The notes under the pieces: model-generated
Database searches by the model: none
What the model was told of the DNA's origin: nothing
Seen by the model: the letters and a program-made list of their open reading frames with translations, nothing else
Shown here: one piece after another, positions 27,601 through 32,540 of the stretch
How the letters are laid out: each line of letters opens with the position of its first letter
Position numbering within the stretch: the first letter of the stretch is position 1
Translations under genes and position numbers: made by a program
NCBI RefSeq assembly: GCF_020085105.1
Contig: NC_058047.1
Coordinates: 15,386,001 to 15,450,000, forward strand
Direction of reading: 5' to 3'
Length of the DNA stretch: 64,000 nucleotides
Origin: Siniperca chuatsi
Taxonomy: Eukaryota; Chordata; Actinopteri; Centrarchiformes; Sinipercidae

Positions 27601-30600
27601 TGTGAATTAAGACATTTACTGATTACTGTTTGAATCTGACAGGATATACAGGATTTAATTGCCATTATCCGCACAGTCACTGCGTGGCGTGCTATAGCTA
27701 AACATACACTCAATTCCTGTGATTGGTTTCCTCAGAAAAACTTCTAACAAATGCTATATATATATATATATATATATATATATATACACACACTTCTTAG
27801 GACTTCTTAGGACTTGCCTTACTCGTTGGAGGTATTTGGCCGTTGCTGTTTTCCTTTTTACCTGCCATTTGCCTGTGGTATTCCAAGGTACTTGTAACCA
27901 TCCTCAATGTCTGCTATTGTTCCTTCTGGGAGTGAGACCCCTTCTGTGTGGACTACCTTCCCTCTCTTTGTCACCATTCGACTGCACTTCTCAAGCCCGA
28001 ATGACATCCCAATGTCAGAGCTGTAGATCCTGGTGGTGTGGATCAGTGAGTCGATGTCCCGCTCGCTCTTAGCGTATAGCTTGATGTCATCCATGTAGAG
28101 GAGGTGACTGATGGTGGCCCCGTTCTTGAGTTGGTATCCATAGCCAGTCTTGTTGATTATTTGGCTGAGGGGGTTCAGACCTATGCAGAACAGCAGTGGG
28201 GACAGAGCATCTCATTGGTATATGCCACATTTTATGGATACTTGTGCAAGTGGCTTGCCATTGGCCTCAAGGGTGGTTTTCCACAGCCTCATCGAGTTTG
28301 CAATGAAGTCTCTTAGAGTCCTGTTGATGTTGTACATCTTCAAGCATTCAGTGATCCATGTGTGTGGCATTGAGTCATATGCTTTCTTGTAATCAATCCA
28401 GGCAGTGCACAGGTTGGTGTCGGGCTCTGCAGTCTTGGGTGACTGTTCTGTCAACCAGGAGTTGGTGTTTGGCTCCTCTGGTTCCTCTGCCAATGCCCTT
28501 CTGTGCTTTGCTCATGTATTGATCCATGTGTCCACTTATCTTAGCCGCGATGATGCCTGACATGAGCTTCCATGTTGTGGAGAGACAGGTTATTGGCCGA
28601 TAGTTGGGTGGGACTGTACCCTTTGCAGGATCCTTCAGGATCAGGATTGTGCGCCCTTCGGTAAGCCATTTAGGGTGCGTCCCATCTCTTAGCAGCTGGT
28701 TCATTTGTGCTGCTAGGTGCTCATGGAGTGCAGTGAGCTTCTTTTGCCAGTAGGTGTGGATCCTGTAAGGGCCCGGTGCTGTCCAGTTCTTCATACCTGA
28801 GACTCTTTCTTGGATGTCTGCCGCTGTGATGGTGACTGGATTCTGTTCAGGGAGGTTGCTGTGGTCCTTTCTCAGAGCCGCCAGTCACTGTGCATCGCTG
28901 TTGTGTGATGCCTCCCTCTCCCATATACTTTTCCAGTACTGCTCCGTTTCCAGCCTTGGTGGGTCTGCTCTGCTGTTATTACCCTGCCATTGAGCGAACA
29001 CTTTCGCAGGTTGGGTTGCGAACAGCCGGTTTATTCTTCTGGCTTCATTATCTCTCGTGTATCTCTTTAGGCGGCTGGCCAAGGCTTGGAGCCTTTGTTT
29101 GGCAGTTTCGAGTGCTTCAGGTATGGGCATCTGGTTGTACTTCTTGGGTACTTGCTTTCTCATTGCACCTCTCTCAGCCTCTGTCAGTTGGCTCACTTCT
29201 CTCCGGGCCTCCTTGATTTTTGCCTCCAACCTTCGTTTCTATGGTGGGTACTGTCTCTCATGGCTCCCATGGTTGCTCTTGTAGCCAAGCATCTCTAGGA
29301 TCACTGCTGCTGAGGCATATATCAGCTCATTGGTTTCAGTGATGGTTGTGGTAGGGATCGCTCTCAATGCTGCATTCACATCTTCTAGGAGACTTTCTGA
29401 TGGTACTTCACTTAGCCGTTGTAGTTGGCGTCGGGGTTGCCTTGTATTCATCCTCACCATGATCTTATCTTTCAGGTCAGTCGCTGCCATGTTCAGCGTG
29501 ATTTCTCTTGGGGCTTCGTACCCAATCTCTGGTTGGGGAGCTGCTGGTTGCTCCCCACTGACCTGTTGTCCTGGCTCCCCCTTGCCGTAGCATTTGTGTT
29601 GTATCTCGCCAATCTCAAGTTGTGATCGCAGTTGCCGCTTGTGGATGTTGGAACACTGAGCTACTAGTTGCTTCGCTGTAAGCCTTGATTGTGGGTTTCA
29701 ATATATATATATATATATATATATATATATATATATATATATATATATATATATATATATATATATATATATATATATATATATATATATATATATATAT
29801 ATATATATGCTCAATGGCAAGAACAAGGCCCAGGCAATAAACAGCTACGCCCTGCCAGTGATCAGATACCCTGCGGGAATAATAAGGTGGCCAAAGGAAG
29901 AGATACAGACCACAGACGTTAAGACGTGAAAGCTCCTCATCATGCATGGAGGGTTCCATCCCAAATCCAGCACCCTGAGACTGTACGCTAGCCGTAAGGA
30001 AGGCGGCCGTGGACTAGTGAGTGTGAGAGCCACTATCCAGGATGAAACATCCAAGATCCACGAGTACATCAAAGATAAGGCCCCAACAGATGACGTGCTC
30101 AGGGAATGTCTCAGGCAATGGAGAACAGAGGAAGACGTGCTGGAGGAGGGACCATCATGGGAGGACAAACCCCTGCATGGGATGTACCACTGGAACATAA
30201 CTGAAGTGGCTGATATCAAGAAATCCTACCAATGGCTAGAGCGGGCTAGACTGAAGGACAGCACAGAGGCACTTATCATGGCTGCACAGGAGCAGGCCCT
30301 GAGCACCAGAGCGATAGAGGCCCAGATCTACCACACCAGACAAGACCCAAGGTGTAGGCTGTGCAAAGAGGCCCCTGAGTCAATCCAGCACATAACTGCA
30401 GGGTGTAAGATGCTGGCAGGAAAAGCATACATGGAGCGCCATAACCAAGTAGCTGGCATAGTGTACAGGAACATCTGCACTGAGTATGGACTGGAAACCC
30501 CGAGGTCAAAGTGAGAAACACCTCCAAAGGTGGTAGAGAATGACCGAGCCAAGATCCTGTGGGACTTCCAGATTCAGACTGATAGAATGGTAATGGCGAA

Positions 30601-32540: not shown

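Follow-up and report, generated by a model that had tools for sequence, protein, structure and literature searches.

A 5′-inverted RLE-type LINE at a TA-rich microsatellite, with an inversion that probably arose during insertion

How does a single retrotransposon come to lie in two orientations, with a long TA repeat between its parts? The stretch of DNA analysed here (the window, 64 kb, corresponding to C6:15386001-15450000 of the host genome and containing no N bases) carries at 27787-30926 one young, 5′-truncated LINE of the RLE type (R2/R4-like), of which the 5′ part is inverted and the 3′ part direct. The ORF is interrupted by stops and frameshifts; its 5′ part lies on the minus strand at 27787-29700 and its 3′ part on the plus strand at 29809-30926. 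Copies of the same element from that genome (719 Mb, 65 contigs) served for comparison.

We label the breakpoints as follows: a is the 5′ end of the inverted part (29700), b is the end of that part beside the left TA tract, and c is the start of the direct part (29809). Reading along the plus strand, the left tract is (TA)16 at 27755-27786, followed by CACAC at 27787-27791. The left copy of a candidate target-site duplication, TATATATATACACA, spans 27777-27790, and was recognized as the longest match between the two outer flanks. The letters of the element itself start at 27792, where b is marked by a 10-bp tandem duplication on the minus strand (27792-27811); the unit ACTTCTTAGG is present twice here, while it is single in the 20 genome copies whose site was printed, i.e. 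the window copy has gained the second one at its inverted end. The inverted part (27787-29700, minus strand) encodes the N-terminal region of the ORF and the RT palm, as judged by its RVT_1 and R2 matches, and is 5′-truncated at 29700. It is separated from the start of the direct part by (AT)54 at 29701-29808. The direct part (29809-30926, plus strand) contains the region following the RT palm, a CCHC knuckle, a PD..D motif, the 3′ UTR and a T run. It is followed at 30927-30940 by the right copy of the candidate target-site duplication, comprising a right tract of (TA)5 (30927-30936) and CACA, identified by the match between the flanks. A preliminary description had given the span of the element as 27755-30940, with AT tracts at 27755-27786 and 29701-29808. 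The tracts are indeed (TA)16 and (AT)54, and the element is confirmed, but an end at 30940 takes in 14 bp of target repeat. The window copy has three small deletions. The inverted part lacks 10 nt at 27864. In comparison with 20 genome copies the direct part lacks 39 nt at 30738, shared with copy L011 only among the 20, and 19 nt at 30783, a deletion present in none of the 20 others.

Other ORFs in the window match the MCLC, mucolipin, Spb1 and LRAT families. These neighbours and the family name of the element point to a vertebrate host, probably a fish. Those at 23527-23886 and 26149-26499 on the minus strand match an MCLC-family gene, and the element starts ~1.3 kb upstream of the nearer. 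Directly downstream of the element, 31148-32304 contains imperfect inverted repeats (36 nt at 94%, 40 nt at 78% and 28 nt at 93%) with outer ends ~1.16 kb apart, and looks like a small DNA-transposon-like element with an internal repeated stretch.

The class of the element can be read from both of its parts. Pfam RVT_1 matches 27858-28211 in the inverted part at 5e-10. When the RT was conceptually joined, it matched the R2 chains 9nl3 (E 3.7e-9) and 9dou (named R2Tg; 6e-9) with an alignment that runs straight across the join, while the inverted part by itself matched R2 only at 0.01 and the sole match of the direct part was to a further R2 protein, 9nl2, at 0.08; some of this gain in E-value is expected anyway from the greater length of the joined query. 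The direct half has a C-terminal CCHC knuckle and PD..D endonuclease motif, the combination that is the hallmark of RLE-type LINEs. Judged by its R2-related RT and these C-terminal motifs, the element is an RLE-type LINE (R2/R4/NeSL group). We presume that it belongs with R4/Dong/Rex6, the name also given in the preliminary description; the databases searched yielded only R2 relatives, and no R4, Dong or Rex6 sequence emerged as a match. Dong-like members have microsatellite targets. No relatives were found in viral, prokaryote-genome, plasmid or phage collections, and the seven Rfam matches over 25000-33000 all fall below their gathering scores. A review places Rex6 in the R4 family, as an element of teleosts with RT and RLE (PMC6274825), and the window element likewise has an RT and a C-terminal RLE. 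In the account of that review the R4 family is specialised for rRNA genes, whereas the window family sits at TA repeats.

Do the two parts belong to one element? A search with the 3′ half provided 39 other copies (40 scored of 1564 first-look candidates), 20 of which were read whole and 19 to ~1.4 kb upstream, and a search with the 5′ half another 39 (40 scored of 659 first-look candidates), seven being covered over 3.8 kb and 32 as 931-base pieces around the 5′ end. The site corresponding to b|c is uninterrupted in all 20 whole copies and in 17 of the 19 partial ones, i.e. in the 37 of 39 that align on both sides. In these copies the last matching base of the inverted half is 1900 (1899 in L027); after an interval of one or two bases the direct half matches from its base 1 onward (from base 2 in L012). 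The exceptions among the partial copies are L041, which has its start a short way upstream and continues through the site, and L031, which starts beyond it. The seven copies covered over 3.8 kb (L049-L055) are likewise contiguous at the site, and TA is absent there from all 37 copies that align on both sides. The sequence at the site in the 20 copies printed is AAGAAGTCAGCTCAATGG, with small variants. The window copy differs from these in having no CA between its halves; since AAGAAGTCAGCTCAATGG stands at the site in the other copies, the CA has been lost from the window copy. It is also 5′-truncated, because the element extends further upstream in 38 of the 39 copies from the 5′-half search.

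The two halves are also of the same age. Private substitutions were scored at positions with data from four or more of the 20 copies and agreement among at least 80% of those, giving 21 in 1738 positions of the inverted half and nine in 1101 of the direct half (Fisher p 0.35). This suggests that the halves are equally old and, at ~1% private change, that the copy is young; the agreement of the two rates argues for a single insertion. A separate insertion should carry its own 3′ end, and the inverted part lacks one. The halves resemble each other at no more than chance level, in two matches (14 and 11 nt, each with E 0.92). An 11-mer at the start of the direct half (29809-29819) recurs once in the inverted half (28985-28995), the sole one that the halves share. 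In principle two different copies might have inserted independently, head to head within one TA tract, to give this arrangement. Such a pair is known from copy L051, at 1280-1440 (element orientation), where two copies lie head to head at one TA tract ~26 nt apart, the product of either double insertion or dual priming. The copies in that pair cover overlapping stretches of the element, each extending to the 3′ end region, for which reason L051 was dropped as a further inversion. In the window the left piece lacks a 3′ end, only 2 nt of the element lie between it and the start of the right piece, and the halves are equal in age with only the chance-level matches between them. We therefore regard two insertions as very improbable. 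The contiguous genome copies bear out the preliminary description in this respect: this is one element with its 5′ half inverted, the halves continue one another almost exactly on alignment to copies from the same genome (only CA is missing, with no large gap or overlap), and they do not differ in age.

We turn to the TA repeats. Scoring a TA tract as at least four units within 60 bp of the end of an element, there is one near the 5′ end in 23 of the 32 copies that could be judged (seven of the 39 were not judgeable) and near the 3′ end in 13 of 20, compared to a background of 41 in 5000 stretches of the window. Because TA tracts adjoin the other copies so far above background, those flanking the window element are likely to be target DNA, in keeping with the earlier proposal that the element is set in a TA repeat target. 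The whole composite is bounded at both ends by the 14-bp TATATATATACACA, the left copy of which lies 1 nt from b. This sequence is mostly TA, so its distinguishing weight rests on the CACA; in the 64 kb, at least four TA units followed by CACA occur on the plus strand only at the two flanks of the element, and once on the minus strand (60559-60570). For comparison, the target-site duplications of 5′-inverted L1 elements are reported to resemble those of full-length L1 in length, with a peak at 14-16 bp (PMC2912911). Transcripts of Dong and R4 have been described as self-cleaving at the 5′ end of the element (PMC3774820). TA upstream in the RNA is therefore not the expected source of the middle tract, and it is least expected here because the window copy is truncated inside the ORF.

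Two more 5′ inversions are present in a limited sample of 78 other copies, namely L077 and an element lying upstream of L074. Within the part read, these correspond to none of the 39 copies of the 3′-half sample and to one of the 39 of the 5′-half sample, plus the one neighbouring element; the total of three including the window copy comes from this limited sample and is not a genome-wide rate. L077 has the same plan as the window copy, i.e. a TA-rich left flank, an inverted part, (TA)29 and a direct part. Its b and c overlap by 1 nt, or by as much as 7-8 nt with an imperfect extension included, and at b the 12-bp unit GACTGAGCCGGC is doubled in tandem. The far side of L077 reads N. In the element upstream of L074 the inverted part corresponds to 736-1070 (exact to 1067) and the direct part to 1071 onward in the 3′-half coordinates of L013. 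Its b and c fit within 0-3 nt, and a 15-nt filler AACAGCAATGCTATG lies between a and c. The two parts are 96.4% and 96.0% identical to L013; the inverted part is only 79% identical to the window query owing to the deletions of that query, compared with 96% to L013. No clear target-site duplication was seen at the L074 copy. The stretch between a and c is thus 108, 58 and 15 nt in the three inverted copies, and two of the three have a tandem duplication at b.

Several other rearranged copies were not counted as 5′ inversions. In L019 (6840-7700) an inverted internal segment of the same element follows directly on the 3′ end of a nearly complete copy, and a long TA tract adjoins the far side of this segment. 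L022 and L014 have element sequence of the opposite strand downstream, and L046 has a 45-bp internal inversion at 1188-1232 (element orientation). L017 (C10:8812100-8819800) has (AC)4(TA)n between two element parts in direct order (minus strand, near 3920-3890), i.e. a TA/CA bridge with no inversion. The sequence beside this bridge appears to resemble a Tc1-like transposase, in our estimation.

This last arrangement provides a precedent for one way in which the window copy might have formed. Had a TG/TA microsatellite arisen at b|c, inside the ORF, everything from there to the 5′ TA tract could have been flipped, either by recombination or by the assembler only. Consistent with this, 27787-29700 is bounded by (TA)16 and (AT)54, which are both self-complementary, L017 demonstrates that (AC)4(TA)n can sit between two element parts, and L077 too has TA on both sides. 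However, the left tract is just 32 bp, less than a usual read, and the window contains no N; the 37 copies aligned on both sides are all free of TA at the site, and TA is absent from the inner junction of the L074 copy. We regard such a flip, whether real or made in assembly, as unlikely.

The preliminary description favoured an inversion of an ordinary 5′-truncated copy after its insertion, with the ORF and the 5′ TA tract each broken once and the intervening piece rejoined backwards. This would explain the AT tract beside a and the fit of b to c with no extra assumption, and such a setting is common in the family, 23 of the 32 judgeable copies having a TA tract no more than 60 bp from their 5′ end. 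It requires three separate events in one family, however, each with a break at most ~110 nt upstream of the element, and it leaves to chance both the CACA common to the outer flanks and the fact that two of the three copies have duplications at b. Given the recurrence, the 14-bp repeat and the duplications at b, we consider it weaker than an event at insertion, and unlikely.

Twin priming, the usual explanation of 5′-inverted LINE copies (PMC2912911), had been left out of that description. It has been described mainly for L1, where 639 of 2068 human- and chimpanzee-specific elements were counted as 5′-inverted in the same report. The window copy consists of an inverted 5′ part followed by the direct 3′ part of one element, and we think it probable (at roughly 0.6) that the inversion arose during insertion of a single RNA of an RLE-type (R4/Dong/Rex6-like) LINE at a TA-rich microsatellite. 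In such an event one target strand would prime at the 3′ end of the RNA and copy up to c. The other target end would prime internally on the RNA, at b, which lies two bases upstream of c, possibly with some stutter, and copy toward the 5′ end, halting at a. The cDNA ends at a and c would then become joined via TA sequence, most simply by copying or annealing to the TA target, and the bridging tract would later expand to (AT)54.

An event at insertion is preferred for four reasons. First, similar 5′ inversions recur in L077 and in the element upstream of L074. Second, TATATATATACACA bounds the whole composite. Third, the stretches between a and c are short, while random later inversions should enclose 5′ flank of arbitrary length. 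Fourth, two of the three copies have a duplication at b, where the second reverse transcription would start. We also count in its support L062, the 5′ junction of which is snap-back-like, a type reported for R2; the copy has a ~30-nt inverted repeat of this kind at its 5′ end (730-760, element orientation).

Some features count against it. The target CACAC and the adjoining element sequence share at most ~1 nt of microhomology at b, while only 28 of 605 5′-inverted L1 elements (4.6%) were reported to lack microhomology and ~70% to have 2-5 bp (PMC2912911). A bridge of (TA)29-54 is not part of the L1 scheme. In all three copies b and c nearly abut, as a simple inversion also predicts, whereas L1 inversions are described as having gaps or overlaps (PMC12016303). 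Few inversions were found, and the L074 copy has no clear target-site duplication.

Comparison with known systems shows both similarity and difference. Twin-primed human L1 elements are described as having an inverted 5′ part and a direct 3′ part with a tail, bounded by a target-site duplication (PMC2912911, PMC12016303, PMC2837659), and the window copy has the same organization, although its target-site duplication is a candidate only. It differs in being of the RLE type, in its (AT)54 bridge, in the 2-nt fit and in having nearly no microhomology at the priming side. The snap-back junctions reported for R2 in human cells (PRINT) involve RLE-type machinery, with the 3′ end of the cDNA extended on nearby DNA before joining (PMC11371274, PMC11331408), and L062 looks alike. 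Snap-back repeats the same sequence in inverted form, whereas the halves of the window copy share only chance-level matches; snap-back was accordingly rejected as the cause of the window arrangement.

Cell assays are reported to have yielded such inversions of human L1 in human cells and, in chicken cells, a single one of zebrafish Nimb-2, and none of ZfL2-1 (PMC4245944). Searching the literature outside subscription journals, we found no report of twin priming or 5′ inversion in R4, Dong or Rex6, and PMC6895275 was the only work found there that joins the terms twin priming and restriction-like endonuclease. That work puts forward the idea that second-strand synthesis may have a related, aberrant form in the twin priming of L1, and it describes the second half of LINE integration (second-strand priming and the 5′ junction) as poorly understood. 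We raise, as a tentative idea and one that we would not yet favour, the possibility that TA-targeting RLE-type LINEs make their own kind of twin-primed 5′ inversion, in which both cDNAs run onto the TA target and the self-complementary TA ends anneal, leaving the two parts in opposite orientations on either side of a TA bridge, with a near-exact fit and primer stutter at b.

R2 proteins are reported to be under development for transgene insertion (PMC11371274, PMC12222951). Naturally inverted copies such as that in the window may record intermediates in which both target ends have primed. If TA-bridged 5′ inversions do recur in one genome, a sample of these intermediates could be read there, and twin priming would not be nearly confined to L1.
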